Assembly: GCA_947044365.1 (NCBI GenBank)
Contig: OX345645.1
Span: forward strand, 6,019,741-6,083,740
DNA length: 64,000 bases
Source of the DNA: Petrosia ficiformis
Taxonomy: Eukaryota > Porifera > Demospongiae > Haplosclerida > Petrosiidae
Reading direction: 5' to 3'
The notes beneath the pieces are model-generated. The model made no database searches. It had not been told where the DNA came from and was given only the letters and a program-made list of their open reading frames with translations. The translations under genes were made by a program, and so were the position numbers. Positions 17,196 through 64,000 of the stretch are shown piece by piece (the first letter of the stretch is position 1; each line of letters opens with the position of its first letter).

Positions 17196-18698
17196 ATGAA
17201 GACAAGAAACAAAGAACAGTTTGATAATGTATCTAATGATAGTGATGATACTTCACTACTGGCATTTGACAGGAATATAACCAATAAAGAAGACTGTTGT
17301 GAGTTGAAGTCTTTCTTCCCTTCATGTCTTTGTGATCCACATCGGATTCCATATCGCTACATTATATTAATACTTCTCTGCTACATACAAGGAACAACAA
17401 TGTATGCCGTAGAAAAGCTTGGAGGAATAGAGAATACAATCATACAGATTATGAAAATTGATGCTACACAATACAACTTGTTATTCTCTGCATTCACATG
17501 GCCCAATATAATCTTGTGTCTAATAGGTGGTATAGTGATTGATAGGTTTCTAGGGCTTAGTCGAGGATTTATATTATTAACTCTATTGTCTTTACTTGGA
17601 GAAATAATATTTGTTGTTGGAGCATTTGTTGATAATTTCTTGATTATGTTGACAGGACGGTTTATTTTAGGTAGTGGAGTGGAACTAGTGATTGTAGTGA
17701 TACATGCATATCAAGCAATTTGGTTTCTTGGCAAAGAAATAAGTTTTGCTATGTCACTAGCAATGTGTGCCAGTAGATTGTCAGGAGCAATTGGACTAAT
17801 TGTTCCTCAAGTGATATATGATAGTTTTCACTTCATATCCAATCCTAATTATCGTCTTGGGGCATCTTTAATGGTTGGAGTCCTGGCTATGATACTATCT
17901 CTCATTTGTTGTGTAATGATAATACTATTAGATAAGAGAGGAGCAAAACTATTAGAAAGAGAACAATTACAAATAAAGAAGATTACTTTACGAGATATAA
18001 AAGATTTCTCTATTTCATTTTGGCTAATAGCTATAGCTATTACCATATACTATCCAGTTGTGTTTTCATTCACTGGAATTGGTCAACTATTTATCATCAA
18101 TAAATACAGACTGAGTATAATAGAGGCTAGTGTTGCTAATTCTCTTGTATTTGGTGCAGTTATTTGTTTAACCCCTCTAATTGGAATTCTAGTAGATATA
18201 TTTGGTTATAATCTAGCATGGGCTCAATTTGGTGCAGTAACAGGAATTGTGTGTCACTTAATGTATGCCACAAGTACTGGAGAATCATATATACCTTATC
18301 TAATAGGAATATTATATTCTGTTTCATATTCTTTCTTTGGAATTGCAATATATCCAGTTCCAGCTCTGATTGTTCAAGAACATCAATTGGTCACAGCGTA
18401 TAGCTTGTCCAAATCTTCATACAATTTAGCCTATACTGTTATCAGTATTATTAGTGGTGTGATTATAGACTATGCTGGATATTTCTTTATGCATATTTAC
18501 TATCTTCTACTACTATACATAGTCTTTATTGTGCTCATTATATTGTGGGTAATGGAAGTCATGTCAAAGGAAAGCAAGATAAATGTATCAGGATGGAAAA
18601 GAAGGGATAGATTGAAAAAAGAAGTAGAACGAAAATTTGTTCAAGAGGATTACAGCGAAAAAAGATCAAATGATTTATATTCATATGATAATGAATGA
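17196..18698 (+). CDS. MFSD1-like transporter, array copy 6
   Basis: 500 residues, intact. It keeps Glu163 (GSGVELVIVVIHAY) but is the most divergent functional copy in the next helix: SLAMCASRLSGAIG instead of SLGTSTCRLGGAIG. The Arg is still present. The penultimate helix region also differs (LSKSSYNLAYTVISIISGVIIDYAG). The dileucine motif is DDTSLL. The tail ends RSNDLYSYDNE. These changes fall on helices expected to line the transport path, so this copy could differ in substrate preference; that is inference. Confidence 0.87.
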   Translation: MKTRNKEQFDNVSNDSDDTSLLAFDRNITNKEDCCELKSFFPSCLCDPHRIPYRYIILILLCYIQGTTMYAVEKLGGIENTIIQIMKIDATQYNLLFSAFTWPNIILCLIGGIVIDRFLGLSRGFILLTLLSLLGEIIFVVGAFVDNFLIMLTGRFILGSGVELVIVVIHAYQAIWFLGKEISFAMSLAMCASRLSGAIGLIVPQVIYDSFHFISNPNYRLGASLMVGVLAMILSLICCVMIILLDKRGAKLLEREQLQIKKITLRDIKDFSISFWLIAIAITIYYPVVFSFTGIGQLFIINKYRLSIIEASVANSLVFGAVICLTPLIGILVDIFGYNLAWAQFGAVTGIVCHLMYATSTGESYIPYLIGILYSVSYSFFGIAIYPVPALIVQEHQLVTAYSLSKSSYNLAYTVISIISGVIIDYAGYFFMHIYYLLLLYIVFIVLIILWVMEVMSKESKINVSGWKRRDRLKKEVERKFVQEDYSEKRSNDLYSYDNE

Positions 18699-22189: not shown

Positions 22190-22580
22190 ATAGGCAATCC
22201 TTTGCCTACTGCTATGATGCCCAGTGGATGATAGGCAATTTGTTGCCTACTGCAGTGATGCCTAGTAAATGATAGGCAATTTGTTGCCTACTGCAGTGAT
22301 GCCTAGTAAATGATAGGCAATTTGTTGCCTACTGCAGTGATGCCTAGTAAATGATAGGCAATTTGTTGCCTACTGCAGTGATGCCTAGTAAATGATAGGC
22401 AATTTGTTGCCTACTGCAGTGATGCCTAGTAAATGATAGGCAATTTGTTGCCTACTGCAGTGATGCCTAGTAAATGATAGGCAATTTGTTGCCTACTGCA
22501 GTGATGCCTAGTAAATGATAGGCAATTTGTTGCCTACTGCAGTGATGCCTAGTAAATGATAGGCAATTTGTTGCCTACTC
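22190..22580 (+). repeat. 41-bp tandem repeat, about nine units, each able to form a hairpin
   Basis: Eight essentially identical 41-bp units plus one diverged first unit (with ctgctatgatgcccagtgg). Each unit contains TAGGCAA, a tttg loop and TTGCCTA: a 7-bp inverted repeat with a 4-base loop. Near-identity indicates recent expansion or homogenisation. It lies just upstream of the first ORC3 exon seen. Confidence 0.95.
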
Positions 22581-41673: not shown

Positions 41674-44600
41674 CATGTATATATGTGTGTGTGTACATAA
41701 ATATTTGTAGAACACTGTCCTTACAGTGACATGCACTCAATAGTTCACACTTACAGTGACTAAGATAGCTGTAAGCAGGTAAGTACATGTAATTACTTCA
41801 TTAATTTCAATGAGGTTATATAAGTTAGTGATGTTCATAAATTCACATATTATTGCGACAAGAATTGTTAGCCTCCAGATAAAGATCCAGTACCAGTAAT
41901 ACATGTCATGGCTCAGTGGGAATATAACATTTTCGCAGAGCGATGGAATGGTCATGGTTATACTTACAATCCTGTGAACAAAGAAATGAGATTTGGTCCT
42001 TATGTGGTAGATATAGCTCTAGTTCCACAACTCATTCTCAATGACTTGGAACAAACAGCCCTAGCAGGCATTAATAAAATTCTTCATCATGTCCCTGAAC
42101 TTCAGCTCACTGTTCCAATTAATCCTATTAATAAAACCTTCGACCAGACTGATTTAAATGGGATGAATAGTAACGTAACTATAGATGGAAGTTTTGGTTC
42201 AGTCGGTGCAGTTTCTTGTTTGATAGCATTTGCTGTTGCAAAAATTAACCAGGCACAAGTAATGGCAAGTGGGTACCATTTAGATAATGAAGTGACATCC
42301 TATGCAGCAAGTGTAAATGTTATTCAGGCAATGACTGCACCTCCTCTTAATGGTAATACCGTTGATTTCTATGTTATGGGTGGCGAAGTAGGTCAAAATA
42401 CAAACCCTCAAAATGATGATCTGACGATGGATTATTCCAGCTACTATCCATTTTTCAGGGCGTGTGCTGATCAACAAGTTGTTTTTGGTGGTCATAAGTT
42501 TCCAGCGAACCCAAACGGTACAACAACAGCAAATGCTGCAATTACTACTGACCAACAACAAAATCCAGTGATTAATTTGTGGATTACCAATAACTATTAA
42601 CAGTTCTTCGGAATCAAAAGAGGCTAAAAAATGATTTACCATATAAACTCATTAGTGTAGTTTAATAACTGTGTATAATTACATGTATATTATTACTATC
42701 ATTATAAAATATATAAATAAACTTTACCAGTTAGAATCAAAAAGAAATTGTCATAGTAATTCTGATTTTTCAAATAATGTTTCTATTTGACTCGTGTTGC
42801 ATATTAGTATACATGTAAATATGAAATCCTGATACCTCTATAGTATGGACACTTAGAACTGATCATGATGTCCACATTATTGTTTGTAATATTCACATTG
42901 TGTATGTACATGTAGGATATCTCTCTCTCTCTCTATAATATATATACTGTATATGTACATGTACATGTATATATACATGTATATATACATGTACCTGTAT
43001 ATATGTGTGTGTGTGTACATGTATAGACCTCACCACATCAAAGGGATGTTGTGACCAACATACTACATGTATATATATATACATGTGTATATATATATAA
43101 TATATATACTGTATATATGTAATACATTTATATATACCATGGCTTCGAGGGCCAATATCAAGGTGCGAGGGTCTTTTGGCAAATTGTCATGTAAAAAAAC
43201 TAGTTTATTCACATTTTCTGGTAATAGTGAAGCTCTTTTAACAGAAACAATATTTCCTGCAGTACTGAAAACCTGTTCCAAGGGAACGGATGTGGCAACA
43301 TTGCACAAATACTTTCTTGCCAATTTAGAAATATTTGGGAAAACACAAAAATGAGCACACCACCATTCTAATGGATACTGATCAAGAGGAATGGTTGTTT
43401 CTGATTTATAACGGAGGACTTCAGCATGAATCACATCTTCGTGTGTGCTAGTACATGTAGCTGAGGCCTGAACAATAAATGAATCCCCCAGCATATCAAA
43501 AAGAGCATTTTTGGCCTTCTTCTTTCTGGATTCAGCAGTAGAACATTCATCATTAGATTCATCATTAGATTCATTATTGGGCTCCATTTCAGCATCTGAT
43601 TCATTGCCATAGTCACTATCATTTTCCAACTCAATGAGCTCTTGTAAGATGGCATCACTCACTTCAGATTGCTGAAAGTTAGATAAGTGAGTCAATGATT
43701 TCAATTTAGGATCCAAATATGACGCTTTGTTTAGCAACATTTGAATATCTGGACGTTGGTAGCAACTATTGATATCATCCCGAAGAGCTCTTTTGAATTC
43801 TCTTATAACAACTGCCACCTTTTTCTTGATCTCTCCTAGTAGAGGGCCTAGTGCTGAAATGGTAAGGTATTTCTCACCAGACAAGTGGAGAGTAGCAATC
43901 TTGAATGGACAAAGTAGCTGAACAATGTCCTCTAAAATTCTCCATTCATTTGGAGAAATTTCCAAATGTACCAAGTTTCGTCGTTGAAGTAACACTGCAA
44001 GCTGTTGTTCAAGAACCCTTTCTACTGTCAGTATAGTATAGTAATTACTGTCTCACTACTGTGGTGTTCAATTGACATGTACAGCAATTACTGTTAAAAC
44101 TACTGTTGAACTACTGTAGTGTGGAAATGAAACTACTGAGTAATTACTGTACTGTATGGTGACTTTATATTGACATATACTGTAGTATAGTAATTACTGT
44201 CTCACTACTGTGGTGTTCAATTGACATGTACAGCAATTACTGTTAAAACTACTGTTGAACTACTGTAGTGAGGAAATGAAACTACTGAGTAATTACTGTA
44301 CTGTATGGTGACTTTTTAATGACATATAAAAGATAGGAATTACACAAATGAAGTACTTTCCCTGTAATGCTAACACATACAGTTGTCTCATATCTCAGAT
44401 ATCTAGAGCGTCTTCCATTTTACATATAGTTTAGCTGAAAATAGGTAGTATACATGTAATCAATATGGGTAGTTTCAATCAAGCGATCTCTGTTCCATAC
44501 AGCACCTTGGATCTCCTGATCTCATTCCAAACTAGGAGGAGATCTTGGCCTTGTTAGTGTGTGTTACAAACTGACACACCCTTTAGTTATTTTTGCAAGT

Positions 44601-49906: not shown

Positions 49907-52900
49907 ATGATTGATCTCATACAATGGAGAGTTTGTATTGGAATGTGGTGTGGTCATATGAAGTCTGTCAAGAGGAAATGTAGACTCAATAATAACATGC
50001 AAAGTCATCCAGGTGTACAGTGGATCAAAGATTATCACTGGGAGAATGAAACTCTTGGAATGTGTACATACATGTATATTCTTACTAGTGTGTGGTTGTA
50101 TACACTAACTGTGTGTATATTTCTACTACTGATACTCTCTGGTGATGTGGAATCCAATCCTGGACCTGTGGGTTAGTTATTAATATGTACAATACTACAC
50201 ACACATGTATATAACCTACTATACAACTTCATGTACTTGCAGTATAATCACTTGCTCTATCATATCTGCTATAACCAATAATAGAACTTACTTCCGGCAA
50301 AGCAGTAATTCTGCTCAATGAGTGTGGTTTCAACTTTAACAGCAATTGGAGTTGGTTAACAAGTATCTTGAATGTTCCAATAGAGATAAAAGAAAAGATG
50401 AGAGCCATAATAAAGGAAGATGGAGCATATGAATATGCAATCGAAATAGCATTGGATTGGTGGATTAAGAACACATCAGAAGCATCATGGAAAGTGTTAA
50501 TATCATCAGTAGACAGGTGTGGAGGGAAAGATACTGCAGATGCAATGAAGAAAAAACTAAGCGAAGAAGGTAATTTTAAAATGAACTAATTGGTTAGCAC
50601 AGTTCCAAGGAATAGTAGAAATTGGTTGTTATGACTGCAATCCAATAATGCAATTTCAATTATCCTTATACTGTCCAATAGATGTACAAAGAACCAGAAT
50701 AAATTAATTATAGGTTTTGAAACCTTTTTTGTGCATCTAATATGAGATTAAGACATGATAATTGATTACAATTGGTACAATTATGTTATCATGCAGTATA
50801 GTACCTGACATCATTAAGTTTACATACTATAATGGGAGCTACACTTTAATAAGGTGATAGTTAACTGTCCTTCTAAGTAGTACTATAGTATTGTAATCAT
50901 AGTAATGTGTGAATTCCCTTTACATTTGTATGTGATAGCACAGTACTAAGGTGTAATACTGTGTAGTACATTCAAAGTACAGTGTACTTCACTCACAAAG
51001 TACACTATAGTCAATGGAAATATAGTGATAGATTGTAAACATGTAATGTCAGGTATTGTACATGTAATAACAGCCTGTGTGACTAATAATTAAATTATAA
51101 TTTGCATCCTTGCAACTGTACTAACCAATGCATTTATTATTACACTGTAAACACTAATGGCTATTTTAACCCATCTTTGGTTACAACAGTTTCAATATTA
51201 ATAATATGCTCCTGAGACTACATTTATATCTATATTAACTAGTATGTAAATTACATTACGTAATACAGAAAGCCGCAGTAATTTATACAAAGGATATTAT
51301 TTGTTATTATAAGTACAAATTTGTTTACATGTAGTAATTATTCTGAAAGTAACCAACATTAATTTTGTTGTTTCACAGGTGTCAGAATAGGTACAATTAT
51401 AATACACGACAGTTACGATTATAATACTATGCTGTATACATTGTATTGAAGTTTTTGTTATATAATATGCTTCATTATGACATGTACCTTATATAATAGT
51501 CTTAAAACAAATACTTGTAAACATTGCATAGCAGAAAGAACAAACCAGCATTGAGCAAAATATATTATAATTATACTGAAATTCCTGTAACCAACTGAAG
51601 ATAAAAATTTTTACTCCTTATAAATATTGTATGGCAATTCAAATACATTTGTTGCACTCTCTATAGATGACTCATGTACACTGGTATCATATGAATCACA
51701 TCGGTTAACTCCTTTAACCATATTGAAGAAACATTTGTCTGAAATACTTGATGTTGTGGGTGACCCAAATAGACTTGCTAATGATTTGTGGAGTGTTGAT
51801 CTAATATCTAATATTGTTAAAGATAATATCATATCTACTCCTAATGTTCCTCGTTATGAGAAGGCCAGTAAATTACTAAATGAAGTTTACAGATCTCTTA
51901 TGGTCAACAAAAATCCAGAGACACTCATTTCTTTGTGTAAAGTGTTAATAAATCAGAGCAATTTAGTGATGTCAACAATATGTAAAACTATGTTGAAAGA
52001 GTTAGGTAAGCCAATAATTATTTTTCCTGTTACGATAACAATTCAAAACTTTATACTAAATTCTAATACATTAATTCACACAGGTGTTGATGATGTCTAA
52101 TCATCTGAAGTCGTTTCTGATACCGACAGATTTATTAGAGAATTACGTGATCGATACCTTCAGGAACCGGTAGTACATAATGACTTGTTAGACCGACGTA
52201 TTGGTGGAGACAAGTTTGGACAATTAGGACTCATTAAGGGACATGGAGGATGTCTTTCTGCATCAGAAGGGAAATTAGATAATATAATGAATGTATCTAA
52301 AAAAATAGACGTAGAAGATGTACTGAAACATAATGATGATAATAGTCCAATCAAAGTAGTAGTTGATGGTCCTCCAGGTGTAGGAAAAACTACACTTTGT
52401 AAAAAGCTGTGTAACATGTGGGCTAAGAATGAACTGAAGAAATGTTGTTTTGATCATGTCTTCCTTCTTCCTCTCAGAGATGACAGAGTAACTTCAGCTG
52501 AAGGTATATATGATCTTGTTTCTTTATTTCATAGTGATAAAGTGATTTGTGAAGCTGTTAGTCAACAGATCAAGAAGACAAATGGTAAATGTTTGTTACT
52601 AATATTTGATGGATGGGATGAGTTTGAGGAAAGAAACAAAGACAGATCTTTTATACTGGATATTATTAGAGGAAAACACCCACTAAGGTGTAACATAATG
52701 GTAACTTCACGTACATATGCTTCAGCAAATCTTCTTGAAATACAAACTGTTGATCGTCATATTGAAGTATTAGGTTTTGAGAAGAGTGAGATTATCTCGT
52801 ATATCAAGAAAGAGCTGACCGAAGAGAAATCTGAACAATTGGTAATGGAATTGGTGATAAGGGAAGATGTCCTATCAATATGTTATATACCATTTCTTTG

Positions 52901-55145
52901 TTCCATGTTAGTGAGAGTTTATCACATGTTTGACTATACTCTACCAAACACTCTGACTGAATTGTATCAAAAGTTCATTATTTATGCTATGAAAAGATCA
53001 ACAAACAGACCAGGATTTAATCCAAGAAGAATAGAATCACTTGACAATTTACAGGAAGATCAGAAGGCATTTGATGAACTTTGTTATTGTGCTTATGTGA
53101 ACCTTCAGAAAACAAGTACTAATTTCACTGAAGATCAGATACAGTCCTACAAGTGTAAACACTTTGGATTAATGAACTTCTACACAATAGCAGACACTAC
53201 TCAATATCAGTTTATTCATCTAACCATTCAGGAGTTCCTAGCAGCATGGTGGATATCTCAACAAAATGACCAGAAAAAGCTGTTTGGAGAACATTTCCAG
53301 GATATTCAATTTCGTATGACACTAAAATTTGTGGCAGGTCTGACTGGACTTAAAGATGACAGCTATCAAGAGTATTTCAGTAAAGAGGTGGACTTACAGT
53401 GTGTAAGGAAACCATTGTTTGGTTTTGAATCTCATCAGTGTTCTCTGTTTCATCAGAGTCCACAGATGCTTCAGAAATGTATTTCTGAAGGAGAACTGAA
53501 TGAAGAATATCCTCTTCATGAACGGTATGATACAGATACTATACAACTGTTTCATCTAATTTATGAATCACAAAACAAAAAATTGTGTCAGATATTTGCT
53601 TCATCCATCAAAAACCCCTCTCTCTGTGTAGATAGAGTGATATCATCACAATTTGATTTACTATGCTTGTCCTTTTTTCTGAAGAACTCGAAAAAAACAT
53701 GGAATTATCTCCACCTTGGAAATATTGACAAGCATATGATATTTGACAATAACAATGATTGTTACATAATGAAAGCTGGCTATTGGAGTATCACATCCGT
53801 AATCAAAATTCACCAATCATCATTATGTAAGTACCTTCAAGAGAGTTATATTAGTATTTTTAACCCGTCTGATGTCACACATCTTCTCTCGATGTTCACA
53901 GACCTGTTTAAATTGCCTCATCTAAATATTCTGCATGTTGCATTTAGTCTGTTTAGCAATAAATCAGAAAATTATGATGGTAAGGAAATACTGGAGAAGG
54001 TAATTTCTACAAATCATAATATTAAGGAATTGTTCATTTCTTTTTACAATATACCTCAATGTAGCACATTAATAAACAGTATTTTTGCCGGAGTAAAAAG
54101 AAATAATACAATCCATTTTTTTTCACTATCATACAATCCAAGTGTAAATATTAATAGTACTATCTCGTCGTTACAAGTTGAGGAACTATTGAAAAACAAC
54201 CAAACCTTACAAGCTGTTAAACTGAATATACCTATTAAAGGAATACTCCCATCTCTATGTATTGCATCAGGTAATGAATCTCTTACAGCACTGAATATCA
54301 GTAGAGATACAGTACATGATATGATGACATATCCAGCAGAGAACACAGAAACTTTGTCATCTGGATTAGAAAATGTTGGAAGAAATATTTCTAACTTGAA
54401 AAGTCTATCCCTATATAAACCATTGATGCCATTCATTATCTATTTAGATTCTAATCCTTTTCTACAACAACTGGATATAGTACTAGAGAGAGAAGAAAGT
54501 CTTGGTGAACTATTTAACATTCTTTCCAGCAACACAACTATCATAGCTCTTAGAATAAAATACTATGGCTTGTTTCATGATGAAGTGGGAAAATCTTTTG
54601 AAATGATGCTATCATCAAATCAAACTCTACAATGTCTGGAGATCCAACAGCTTGTGTTGCCTGTTAAATATCTGACTGTGGGACTGAGAGAGAACAGCAC
54701 ATTACAAGAACTAGATATATACTTTACACTCTCGGAAAATGTTAAAGAATTCTTTGAAGCTAGTAATAATCTAAAATCATTGGCAGTGTCATTTATCAAA
54801 TCTGAATTATGGAAGCATTCAGATGAGACATTTATGTCATGGTATGATGAAGAGATAATTCCACAAGTTACAAATATGTTGAAAAGAAATGAAGATGTGA
54901 TGTTTCTGAAAGTTGACTTCTTTTACCGTCTAAGCAATAGAGTTACAGTTAAAGATGACTGGATACCAATGGTACATCAATTCTGGGAAGCTGTGTTACT
55001 CCATCCATCATTATGTTATATATATGTTCATATTTCAAACCAACTTATGAGAGACGTACTTAATGGTAAGAAAAAGACACTGATTACTCAACGTGAAGAA
55101 AAGAATCTTGGTCCACCTCCACTAGTAGAAACAATGAACATATAA
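49907..55145 (+). CDS. NLR immune receptor 1: 2A-like leader, Death, death-fold, NACHT, LRR-like
   Basis: Exons 49907-50171, 50285-50569, 51667-52005 and 52084-55145, all joined in phase 1. Exon 1: 88 residues with a basic patch (KSVKRK), a hydrophobic segment (about 62-78) and DVESNPGP (80-87). Exon 2: Death domain (ALDWWIKNTSEASWKVLISS). Exon 3: helical domain (LSEILDVVGDPNRLAND, then YEKASKLLNEV) resembling CARD-type death folds. Exon 4, numbered from its first ATG (52185): Walker A GPPGVGKTT (62-70), Walker B LLLIFDGWDEF (137-147), sensor MVTSRTYA, winged-helix FIHLTIQEFLAA (343-354), then leucine-rich repeats to residue 986. Family role: cytosolic sensing of microbial or danger signals. 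Odd: in-frame TAA at 52098-52100 just inside exon 4; using AG at 52109-52110 would skip it in frame. Ten residues before the P-loop are missing relative to NLR 2. It is either broken or spliced differently. Confidence 0.85.
50802..51055. mobile_element. MITE family C, full length, in an NLR 1 intron
   Basis: 254 bp; tacctgacatcattaagttt at the left and tgtaatgtcaggta at the right form the inverted ends. It is the best complete copy of this family here. Confidence 0.75.
51379..51390 (+). other. Possible 12-base micro-exon in NLR 1
   Basis: Between a good acceptor (tgtttcacag) and donor (gtacaa) lie 12 bases that would add four residues in the same phase 1 as all other exons. It occupies the place where NLR 2 has two linker exons. 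Speculative. Confidence 0.25.
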
Positions 55146-57087: not shown

Positions 57088-57730
57088 TCATGGCCGGAGG
57101 CACTGGTACGGCTGGTACGACCATGGCCGTACCACCTTTCTTACTTGCTAATCACCTTTGACCTATAACAACTAGCTATAAATCCTATAATGTACAAATT
57201 CCTTTGTGGTCAATTACTACAAGTGTAAATCATTTGCTTGTACATGTATATATATAATATACAGCTGCTTGTATATATATAATATATATACAAGCATGCC
57301 ATGTGTGCCAGTTTGGTGAGCAGAATATAGAGTATCTATATAAAGCTAGCTACTGATTGTGATATTGATTGTGAAAGAACAGCATACCGGTATTCAAATG
57401 TATGGATTCTTCTTACGTTACTATATATTGGTGATGCCTGCTACCAATGCCACTTCTGAGCATTCATTTTCAGCTCTACGCAGGATAAAAACCTACCTCA
57501 GAACCACAATGACTCAAATGAGATTAAACAGTTTAATGGTATTGCACATTCACTCACATAAAACTAAATCTTTATTCTATTGCGGATCAATTTGTTGGAA
57601 ACAGAGAAGGCAGACTTAGAGCCTGTATTTGGAAAATTTGTATAATTATTATTGTACAATTCTGTGTTTTGTGAAATTAGGGTGGGGGTGGCTGTACCGC
57701 TAATAATGAGCTGGCTCCGGCTCTGAGGAT
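57088..57730 (+). mobile_element. hAT element remnant of the ZMYM/TTF type
   Basis: Frame 57359-57619 encodes the hAT C-terminal dimerisation signature: LVMPATNATSEHSFSALRRI, then YLRTTMTQMRLNSLMVLHIH. Flanks show degenerate inverted ends: ggccggaggcactggtacgg at the left and gagctggctccggctct at the right, with gtaccacc and ggtggctgtacc inside. Everything upstream of the dimerisation domain is deleted. Confidence 0.75.
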
Positions 57731-58788: not shown

Positions 58789-61700
58789 ATGATTGATCTC
58801 ATACAATGGAGAGTTTGTATTGGAATGTGGTGTGGTGGTATAAAGTCTGTCAAGAGGAAAACCAGATTCGTTAATAATATACAAAGTCATCCAGGTATAC
58901 AATGGATGGATGATTATCACTGGGAGAGTGATAATCTTGGAATGTCTACAAATGTTCTTAGAACATTACTCAGTAGTGTGTGGTTGTATACACTAACTGT
59001 GTGTATATTTCTACTACTGATACTCTCTGGTGATGTGGAATCAAATCCTGGACCTGTTGGTTAGTTATTAATTATAATACTAAATACATGTAAAAAAAAC
59101 TCTGTAAATGTTATTTAGCGGTTTATTTACTTTTAACAGAGCTTACTCCTGGTAAAGCAGTAATTCTGCTCAGTGATTGTGGATTTAACTTTAAGAGCAA
59201 TTGGAATCAATTAACAAGTATCTTGAATGTTCCAGTAGAGCTAAAGGTAAAGATGAGAGCTATAATAAAGGAAGACGAAGTATATGATTATGCAATAGAA
59301 ATAGCATTGGATTGGTGGATTAAGAACACATCAGAAGCATCATGGAAAGACTTAATATCATCAGTAGACAGGTGTGGAGAGAAAGACACTGCAGATGCAA
59401 TGAGAAAAAAAGTTACTGAAGAAGGTAATTATTAATTACTTATAAACATAGTATGGCTGCTCAAACACTTTTATGGAGTGAAGAAGGTACGTTGAAAGAT
59501 AGAAAGCTTGTTTTGTCAACCATCATCACATTTCCACACTGGACGTGATCAGAGACTATTAATTTTAATGTAGGAATGTATGAGCTTTTCTTTCTTCAAC
59601 TGGAATTCTCTATATCCAAGCATTTGCTCATTTAGACAGAGCTAATGATGTTTTCATCTAAAGTTAATGATAATTATTATAATTATTATGTGCATTTAAT
59701 TTATATATATAATAATTATATACATATATTAGGTGAAGTTGGAAGGAAGAGATGTGCCGGAAATGAAACACTAGGAGCAAATCCTTCTATTTTGGATGTA
59801 GAAGATTATACTCCAAGTAAAAAAGGTATAAATTACTATAATTAGACAGATGATAATCATTGGTCAGACAAGCCTGAGGAAGGAAGAATTGCATCGAATA
59901 AATAACTGAGTAACAAAGTAAAATCACATTACATTCATAGACCTGGGGCTTTATCAGGCTCACCCTAATTATTAGTGGCCTGTGGTTTGCTACAGTGCTA
60001 AATAGGTTACTATGGAAACATGCAGTCTAAACTATTGCAAGCTTTATGGAAAGCATTTCAGCTCATTCCTAATGAGTATTTTCAATTTTTGTGGCATGTT
60101 GAAACACATTTGGAATCTTATTAAATAAGTCTTGCTAATGTTCCAACAACTGAGCATGCTCAGAGTAATCACATTAGTATTAATACTGTTTAGTGATGGG
60201 GGATATTGGTACCCAAGTACTCGATACTTCGGTTTCAGCACACACATTGTTGGTACCGATTACTGGAAACAGAACCAACCACACCCACTTAACCTTAATA
60301 TTTGTTAATAATAATAACGATGTGACTCGTTCATTTTTTAATTTGAATAATAATTATTATTATCACCTGTGCTGCAACAATAATTTTTAAAATAATTATA
60401 GTTCCGCCTGTACTCGGTATAGTACTCGGTACCTTCGGTTCCAAGCTTTAAAGTACTTGGTATCGTACCGAACTGGGAAAAAAAGGTATCGCCCATCACT
60501 AGTACTGGTTAGTAGTCAATATTACAGAAGTAATGAGTATACTTAAAAAGTTTGATAGTATTGCATCATTATTGATGTGTACAACTTGAAACAAAGGTTA
60601 GGGATATTAGTACTACTGTTTTATCTTATATTCTTGTACATTTAAAAATCTATTACATATATACAGTACATCATGATGTTATAATATCCGAATCTACAAC
60701 TAAGAGGAAGAGATATGATGAAGAAGAAAGATATTCAGGTGCAACTCAATCTGATATTTTTATTGTGGCATCAAAGGATGAATCCCAACATCTCAAGAGG
60801 AGTAAACAAGGTTAGATTAAGTATGTTAATACCTTTGTATCAAGCTATAAACTTGTTTGTGAATACTATAGTCAGATATTACACGTGTATACATGATACA
60901 CGAATATTTACACGATATCATTGTAAAAAGTAAATAGATGTACATACACGAACCATCAAAAAAGGATCAATTATACTTCGTGTATTTTCGTTTACTGTCC
61001 ACCACTTTCCAGACACACCTATTTTTAATTAGTTACTATAAATTATATCACACAAAATAGTGTAATTTTAATAAGTTCACATTGTGAAAATGGCGGCGAG
61101 TTCTTCTAAGAGTGTTTCTTTCGTGTATGAGGAATGTTTTGTGTTTCCCAGCCAGACAGTGTCACTTAGCACAAAACACTGCAAAGCAAAGTGCCTAACA
61201 AAATATAAGTATACCTTATTATTTACAAAAGGAAACTTGCTATAGCACCTGCAAACTTTGCATAGCAAAGCTCTGTGCGAACACAAAGAGGAGAGACTTC
61301 GTTTACTAAAGTCAAATCAAAGCTCTCTCACTACCACTGGTTCTCTAATGAAGGGTCAGAGTTCATAAATCAAGATTATATACTTACCTCAATTGTTCGA
61401 AATTTATGTAGAGCTGGTGGACTGGCTATTGGAGTAGTTGTTTTTTTTTAAGTAATAATTTATTTACATGTGTAATGTGCATGTTCATAATAATTTTTTT
61501 GAGTCAATCATTTCAAGTAATGAAGTAGATGAAAATACAAGAAAGTAGATGAGTAGTTCAAAAGTAAATACAAGTAAATACACGAGAAATTAATTTAAGT
61601 AGATGTAGATAGAGAGTAAAGGAAAAATAAGTAGATGTGCAATGTCTGACTATAGTGTAATTTCGTAGATTATTAGTTAATGAATCAACTATAAATATTA

Positions 61701-64000
61701 TAGATATGTACATTCCTTGTGCACCAACAGAATCATTAACTTGTGGACATTATTTTGACCACATGTTCACCTGAGTGTTAATAGACTTTCTATACACATT
61801 CATGATAATCTTTGCTTGATTTCATGTTTGCTTGTAAAATGGCACCTTCTATATGGAAACTAATATTATATTCATAACTGTAACTGATTTTATGCTACAT
61901 CATCATGATTACTATTGATTAGAAATATTTCTTTAATCACATTACAGCTTCAATATCCCATTTATTACATTCTATAGATGACTCATGTACACAGGTGTCT
62001 TGTGTATCAGATCAGTTAACACCAGTCATAATACTGAAGAGACATTTCTCTGAAATACTTGATGTGGTCTCTGATCCAATTAGACTTGCTAATGATTTGT
62101 GGGGTGTTGATCTAATATCTAATGTTGTTAAAGATAATATCATATCTACTCCAAGTGTTCCTCGTTATGAGAAGGCCAGTAAATTACTGAATGAAGTACA
62201 GAGATCTCTTAAAAATCCAGAGACACTCATTTTGTTATCAAAAGTACTAACAAATCAGAAAAACTCCATGATATCTATGATATGTAAAGCCATGATGATC
62301 GAGTTAGGTAAGCTAATAATAATTATTATTTTCAATTTTACACTAACATTCAAAACTAATAAAACTACATCATATTCTAATATATTCACACAGGTGTGTC
62401 TTTAGATGTTTTATCATCTGAAGTCATTTCTGTTACTGGGAGATTTATTAGAGAATTACGTAATCAATATCTTCAGGAACCTGTAGTATATAATGACTTG
62501 TTAGACCAACGTATTGGTGGAGACAAGTTTAGACAACTAGGACTCATTAAGGGACATGGAGGATGTCTTTCTGAATCAGATGGAATGCAGAAGTCATGGA
62601 ATATGTTACGAGGGAAATTAGATTGTATAATGAATGTATCAGAGAAAATAGATATACAAGATGTACTGAAACATAATGATGATAATAGTCCAATCAAAGT
62701 AGTAGTTGATGGACCTCCAGGTGTAGGGAAAACTACACTTTGTCAAAAGCTGAGTAACATGTGGGCTAAGAATGAACTGAAAAAATGTTCTTTTGATCAT
62801 GTCTTCCTTCTTCCTCTAAATGATGAGAGAGTAACTTCAGCTGAAGGTATATATGATTTTGTTTCTTTATTTCATAGTAGTAAAACACTTTGTGAAGCTG
62901 TTAGTGATCACATCATGGAAACACGTGGTAAAGATACTTTACTAATATTTGATGGATGGGATGAGTTTGAGGGAAGAAACAAAGACAGATCATTTATACT
63001 GGATATTATTAGAGGAAAACACCCACTAAGGTGTAATATAATGGTCACTTCACGTACATATGCTTCAGCAAATCTTCTTGAAATACAAACTGTTGATCGT
63101 CATATTGAAGTATTAGGTTTTGAGAAGAGTGAGATTTTCTCATATATCAAGAAAGAGCTGGCCGAAGATAAATCTGAACAATTAATAATGAAATTGGAGA
63201 CAAGGGAAGATGTCCTATCAATATGTTATATACCTCTTTTTTGTTCCATGTTAGTGAAAGTTTATCACATGTTTGACTATACTCTACCAAACACTCTGAC
63301 TGAGTTGTATCAAAAGTTCATTATTTATGCTATGAAAAGATCAATGAACAGATCAGGATTTAACCCAAGAAGAATAGAATCGCTTAATAAGTTACAAGAA
63401 GATCAGAAGGCATTTGATGAACTTTGTTATTGTGCGTATGAGAATCTTCAGAAAGGAAGTACTAATTTCGCTGAAGATCAGATACAGTCCTCCAAGTGTA
63501 AACAATTTGGATTAATGAACTTCTACACAATAGCAGACACTACTAAATATCAGTTTATTCATTTAACCATTCAGGAGTTCCTGGCAGCACGGTGGATATC
63601 TCAACACAATGATCAGAAAAGGCTGTTTAAAGAACATTTCCAGGATATTCAATTTCGTATGACATTAAGATTTGTGGCAGGTCTGACTGAACTTAAAGAT
63701 GACAGCTATCAAGAGTATTTCAGTAAAGAGGTAGACTTACAGTGTGTAAGGAAACCATTGTTTGGTTTTAAATCTCATCAGCGTTCCGTGTTTCCTCAGA
63801 ATCCACAGATGCTTCATGAATGCATTTTTGAACAACAGTCATATCAATATCCTCTTCATGAACGTTTAGATACAGATACTATACAATTACTTCATCTAAC
63901 GTTTGAATCACAAAACAAAATATTTTGTCAGTTATTTGCTTCATCCATTAAAAACTCCTCTATCTGTGTAGATAGAGTGATATCATCACAATTTGATTTA
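58789..64000 (+). CDS. NLR immune receptor 2: 2A-like leader, Death, linkers, death-fold, NACHT (continues past window)
   Basis: Exons 58789-59059, 59140-59424, 59733-59825, 60667-60810, 61978-62307 and 62394 to beyond 64000; every junction is phase 1. The start is the ATG of MIDLIQW, shared with NLR 1, preceded by an acceptor (tccatacag, ending 58779). The leader is 90 residues with the hydrophobic segment and DVESNPGP at residues 82-89. The Death-domain exon has the same length as in NLR 1 (285 bases). Two extra linker exons follow: GEVGRKRCAGNETL and an exon with basic clusters (KRKRYDEEE, HLKRSKQ). The second death-fold exon has ILDVVSDPIRLANDLWGVDL. The NACHT exon is open to the end of the window with GPPGVGKTT, LLIFDGWDEFEG, MVTSRTYA and FIHLTIQEFLAARW. 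No stop interrupts it, so this copy looks functional. LRR-like repeats are expected beyond the edge. Confidence 0.88.
60191..60501. mobile_element. hAT-like MITE in an NLR 2 intron
   Basis: Ends TAGTGATGGGGGATA and TATCGCCCATCACTA (15-bp inverted repeat, one mismatch), flanked by similar octamers atactgtt and gtactggt. The interior has repeated tactcggtac-type motifs. Confidence 0.8.

Follow-up and report, generated by a model that had tools for sequence, protein, structure and literature searches.

Does the first exon of an NLR-type gene in this sponge genome encode a leader from which the ribosome separates the receptor by a 2A/StopGo element, and would this decide where the receptor resides? 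The gene, NLR 1, lies in a window of 64,000 nucleotides, which is the whole stretch of DNA that was analysed; all coordinates are positions in this window, and the genome counts refer to assembly G000 (191 Mb, 29 contigs). The octapeptide DVESNPGP (50144-50167) was read in frame with the ATG at 49907, directly after a hydrophobic run. This is the D(V/I)ExNPGP core of 2A/StopGo elements, and the first-pass annotation of a 2A motif at the end of exon 1 is thereby confirmed. The Leu/Gly context that had been claimed upstream of it was found as an L-rich LLILSG, which matches the description of the L-rich class in the available part of PMC12846837. From the start to Gly the leader measures 86 residues (Gly86/Pro87), exactly the length that had been predicted. 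The hydrophobic segment corresponds to residues 60-77, with a Kyte-Doolittle value of 2.36 for the best 19 residues, and the charge of -2 over the 15 residues preceding it gives no clear membrane orientation. The exon ends four bases past the 2A motif and is separate from the Death exon (Table 1).

Table 1. Positions of the leader, receptor exons and premature stop of NLR 1 and of the neighbouring NLR 2 in the window.
Feature	Position	Strand	Basis or remark
NLR 1 exon 1 (leader), ATG to phase-1 donor G/GTTAGT	49907..50171	+	among the 110 leader-exon matches in the genome, E<=0.0015
N-terminal box MIDLIQWRVCIGMW of NLR 1 leader	49907..49948	+	aligned leaders
Hydrophobic segment TSVWLYTLTVCIFLLLIL of NLR 1 leader	50084..50137	+	Kyte-Doolittle
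2A/StopGo core SGDVESNPGP of NLR 1	50138..50167	+	expected break: Gly 50162-50164 / Pro 50165-50167
NLR 1 intron 1, 113 nt (putative)	50172..50284	+	inferred from splice signals; donor and acceptor conserved in other copies
NLR 1 exon 2 (Death domain)	50285..50569	+	domain match
NLR 1 exon 3, without Pfam domain	51667..52005	+	counterpart exon in L047
NLR 1 exon 4 (NACHT and C-terminal region)	52084..55145	+	NACHT E 3.6e-23 (Pfam)
In-frame TAA before NACHT in NLR 1	52098..52100	+	TTA in related copy L047
NLR 2 exon 1 (leader)	58789..59059	+	same arrangement as NLR 1
NLR 2 2A core DVESNPGP	59032..59055	+	motif search
NLR 2 exon 2 (Death domain)	59140..59424	+	domain match
NLR 2 exon 3	61978..62307	+	gene model
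NLR 2 exon 4 (NACHT), continues beyond window	62394..64000	+	domain match

The leader proved to be a family-wide trait. A search of the genome returned 148 leader matches, from which 38 weaker than E 0.0015 were dropped, leaving 110. The exact core was found in 106 of them by two motif searches and in one more (L047) by reading, that is, in at least 107; among the other three, two were unread and one matches leader residues 1-74 only. In the 31 leaders that were read, the 2A context is LLILSG-DVESNPGP in 17 and a close variant in the others. At least 92 of the 110 leaders are followed by a NACHT domain within 10 kb, at least 12 are preceded by one, and at least one has it on the other strand. 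The corresponding figures are at least 86, 7 and 0 at 6 kb and at least 100, 33 and 3 at 20 kb, and a smaller NACHT set placed one downstream of at least 74 leaders within 15 kb, upstream of 12 and on the other strand of 3; all these counts are lower bounds from the NACHT candidates scored (103 of 249 and 150 of 174). Seen from the receptors, a leader is present within 10 kb upstream at 97 of 155 NACHT places among the candidates scored. The perfect DNA motif occurs at 206 places in the genome, retrotransposon-type sites included, and the residue classes at these places rest on the 25 that were typed. A reversed control pattern gave 0 places against these 206, and a chance origin of the motif was rejected.

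Downstream of the leader, NLR 1 encodes both a Death-fold effector domain and a NACHT domain, and no Pfam LRR was among the families listed for exon 4. A CARD was suspected for exon 3, for which a Pfam scan returned nothing; the counterpart exon in L047 is homologous to a segment lying between leader and NACHT in L051, a divergent copy on contig C3. The TAA is in frame after the acceptor seen in other copies and stands at the start of the NACHT exon, and the gene model gives a spliced product of 301 residues without NACHT. Judged from its sequence, NLR 1 is probably truncated. It has likely lost its function, though not certainly, because weak alternative acceptors from 52111 onward would bypass the stop. 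Hence the receptor that had been predicted to start at Pro is upheld in that Death and NACHT are both encoded, but with a TAA preceding NACHT it would be a truncated Death domain plus a helical piece, unless one of these acceptors is used. Such breakage is common among the copies. Automatic gene models were obtained for 9 of 20 ten-kb loci, of which four are open to the natural length of 1339-1353 residues and five, NLR 1 included, end early (301, 1190, 1088, 666 and 669 residues). The reading frame of NLR 2 is open to the end of the window, and its model in the genome stops at 1190 residues.

We consider it likely that exon 1 encodes a leader protein ended by a working 2A/StopGo element, so that the receptor would be cytosolic when skipping occurs and an ER-directed fusion otherwise. 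The observed support consists of the motif, its context, the hydrophobicity, the gene architecture and the conservation of the splice sites and of the leader across the family; from this we infer the skipping, where each form of the receptor goes and what becomes of the leader. Most rounds of translation would pass without a Gly86-Pro87 bond and the 86-residue leader would be released, after which the Death-NACHT receptor would be made separately from Pro and remain cytosolic. The bond would form in the other, less frequent rounds, and the hydrophobic segment would serve as a signal or signal-anchor that brings the fused receptor to the ER. While the 2A reaction takes place, the peptidyl-transfer centre would be some 9-26 residues away from this segment. 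Roughly 30-40 residues fit into the ribosome tunnel; the segment would still be within it, so that skipping would be decided before SRP could bind. The efficiency of the 2A element would thus set the cytosolic/membrane split, and the released leader would resemble a tail-anchored protein in that its hydrophobic segment is C-terminal. There is a precedent in the available part of PMC4981915: in sea urchin, an NLR leader whose core is of the same kind shows skipping of about 80%, and when skipping is abolished it behaves as a signal sequence. By analogy, the mode of action of the sponge leader is most likely that of the leaders assayed in sea urchin, and each leader-bearing NLR gene probably makes two proteins. 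A wider reading is tentative and, in our judgement, somewhat unlikely: most of the NLR loci found would be two-protein genes, in which the tail-anchored leader has a role of its own (for example as the receptor's membrane partner or sensor) and a family-wide skipping efficiency sets cytosolic versus membrane-bound or secreted receptor.

Other explanations have to be weighed against a leader ended by working 2A. Exon 1 might be a small gene in its own right, or an alternative first exon that is rarely spliced to the Death exon, and a Death match within 2 kb is indeed missing for 20 of the 110 leaders, of which 16 lie on contig C3. However, L051 is one of these C3 leaders, and there leader and NACHT are in a single open frame, with an exon-3-like domain and then NACHT straight after the leader. 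A Death exon follows on the same strand within 2 kb of 90 leaders and within 150 nt of 83, whereas it is upstream of none and on the other strand of one (within 2 kb). Moreover, 19 of 20 loci keep the donor and acceptor of the leader/Death junction, with a single phase. The splice sites and the proximity of the Death exon agree with the joining that the first-pass annotation had assumed, and the splice phases, the four open models and L051 indicate a leader in frame in the N-terminal region of the NLR. We therefore give very little credence to a separate gene. The simple notion that exon 1 is unrelated to the NLR was rejected on its position, its splice phase and the one-frame copy L051. It also seems quite improbable that the leader is a signal-anchor exon only, with an inactive relic of 2A and all of the receptor made as a membrane-directed fusion. 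The hydrophobic segment is strong, and dN/dS among 29 distinct near copies (L004, with an in-frame stop, left out) lends the 2A block no support: the values are 4.1 for the N-terminal box, 0.63 for the middle, 0.66 for the hydrophobic segment, 0.94 for the 2A block and 0.72 for the whole, and in these copies neither the 2A block nor the box shows signs of purifying selection. The reason is that silent change is nearly absent from these two parts as well (pS 0.009 in the box and 0.025 in the 2A block, compared with 0.205 in the middle). Part of the conservation among near copies may stem from gene conversion, recent duplication or constraint at the DNA level. Against an inactive relic, nearly all leaders keep the core, and between the window leader and L051, which belong to two families, the hydrophobic and 2A block has 14 identical residues, nine of them kept through silent codon changes. 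The amino acids are therefore conserved there, not merely the DNA, and this one between-family comparison indicates protein-level constraint on LLLILSGD(V/I)ExNPGP. In addition, the context matches an active class and the sea urchin counterpart is active, as far as the available parts of PMC12846837 and PMC4981915 go.

The exon might serve mainly to make the leader as a second functional protein, with receptor targeting affected only incidentally. Seven residues within the first 14 (D, Q, W, R, I, G and W of the N-terminal box) are invariant in 17 aligned leaders, even in L051, which is 41% identical, and 86 residues are more than the 25-30 or so that a 2A element needs (available parts of PMC11512398 and PMC12846837). 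On the other hand, the conservation of the box is mostly at codon level too: leaving Met and Trp aside, the window leader and L051 share seven residues in it, one of them kept through a silent change, and DNA-level causes may be involved because the other six have the same codon. The predicted structure of the NLR 1 leader is of low confidence (pLDDT 61.5) and uninformative. We regard this purpose as a minority possibility. As for origin, capture of the leader exon from a non-LTR retrotransposon with a 2A, its present function then being secondary, is rather unlikely. At least 8 of the 87 motif places compared lie 2.1-3.3 kb upstream of a reverse transcriptase on the same strand and none on the other side (lower bounds, with 150 of 1383 reverse transcriptase candidates scored). 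APE-type non-LTR retrotransposons bearing 2A were reportedly described by Odon et al. in 2013; in them 2A is upstream of the reverse transcriptase, as at these motif places, but they are mobile elements, whereas the leader here is on a receptor gene. Beyond the NLR-type leaders, the weak matches in long frames extend mostly over the final 25 or so leader residues, which speaks against capture. Exchange between retrotransposons and receptors is possible. Capture in any case bears on origin and is compatible with a leader that is now ended by a working 2A.

No report of 2A on sponge NLRs was found in the literature searched; the survey of eukaryotic and viral 2A that Rao et al. are said to have made may list such genes. 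Other sponge NLRs, for example those of Dysidea avara, also form expanded Death-NACHT-LRR families (PMC12909245, part available), and the main text of that paper, like PMC2885027, contains none of the terms 2A-like, signal peptide and ribosome skipping. The sea urchin parallel drawn in the first-pass annotation holds, since the available part of PMC4981915 places 2A at the N-terminus of Death-NACHT NLRs. As described there, the two systems have in common the D(V/I)ExNPGP motif, its N-terminal region, a large Death-NACHT family, a signal-like hydrophobic tract and a retrotransposon 2A in the same genome. The sea urchin leader has 26 residues at the N-terminus, in contrast to 76-91 residues to Gly in the 30 leaders measured here, and the frequency in sea urchin is about 35% (85/241), or 14 of 87 entries, compared to 97 of 155 NACHT places scored. 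Unlike the sea urchin leader in that source, the sponge leader occupies a separate exon and carries a conserved N-terminal box. The longer leader with this box, its own exon and its presence at these 97 places are what is new here. The viral L-rich StopGo class (motifs 2 and 6) has G at p11, D at p12 and S at p15, and one motif-6 example was active in vitro (PMC12846837, part available). The leader shares with it an L-rich hexapeptide ending in SG, D at p12 and S at p15. However, the viral elements stand between parts of a polyprotein, whereas the leader 2A is N-terminal in a host receptor gene, a use of 2A in host genes that the same source describes as rare.

In an animal that is very distant from sea urchin, the genes of a large family of immune receptors thus usually begin with a 2A leader. 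Because of this distance, the leader would represent either a very old control of receptor location or a repeated invention, perhaps from motif-bearing retrotransposons. Two questions become testable: whether each NLR gene yields two proteins, and whether receptor placement is set by ribosome skipping.

Some further motifs and features were observed. Twelve additional motifs read DVELNPGP, at C11:4.20-5.32 Mb (7), C2:12.11-12.20 Mb (3), C12:2444519 and C1:19145274; this class has weak leader similarity where it is among the listed matches, and no adjoining NACHT among the NACHT candidates scored. Outside the 110 leaders there are seven DVESNPGP copies with AAC CCC/CCT codons, six at C3:2.01-2.30 Mb and one at C4:1367440. 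At C2:14088904, where the motif is DVETNPGP, and at C5:6996350, the leader end weakly matches (E 0.07 and 0.3) frames that are open for 2246 and 2352 residues. In the window, remnants of the hAT transposase C-terminus are present at 43063-44052 (-) and 57350-57619 (+), one of them between NLR 1 and NLR 2. Seven similar-looking long ORFs stand in series at 793-21383, and a scan of one of them (17199-18695) identified a Major Facilitator transporter. They are followed at 22190-22579 by a tandem repeat with a 41-bp unit, 9.5 copies and 97% matches.
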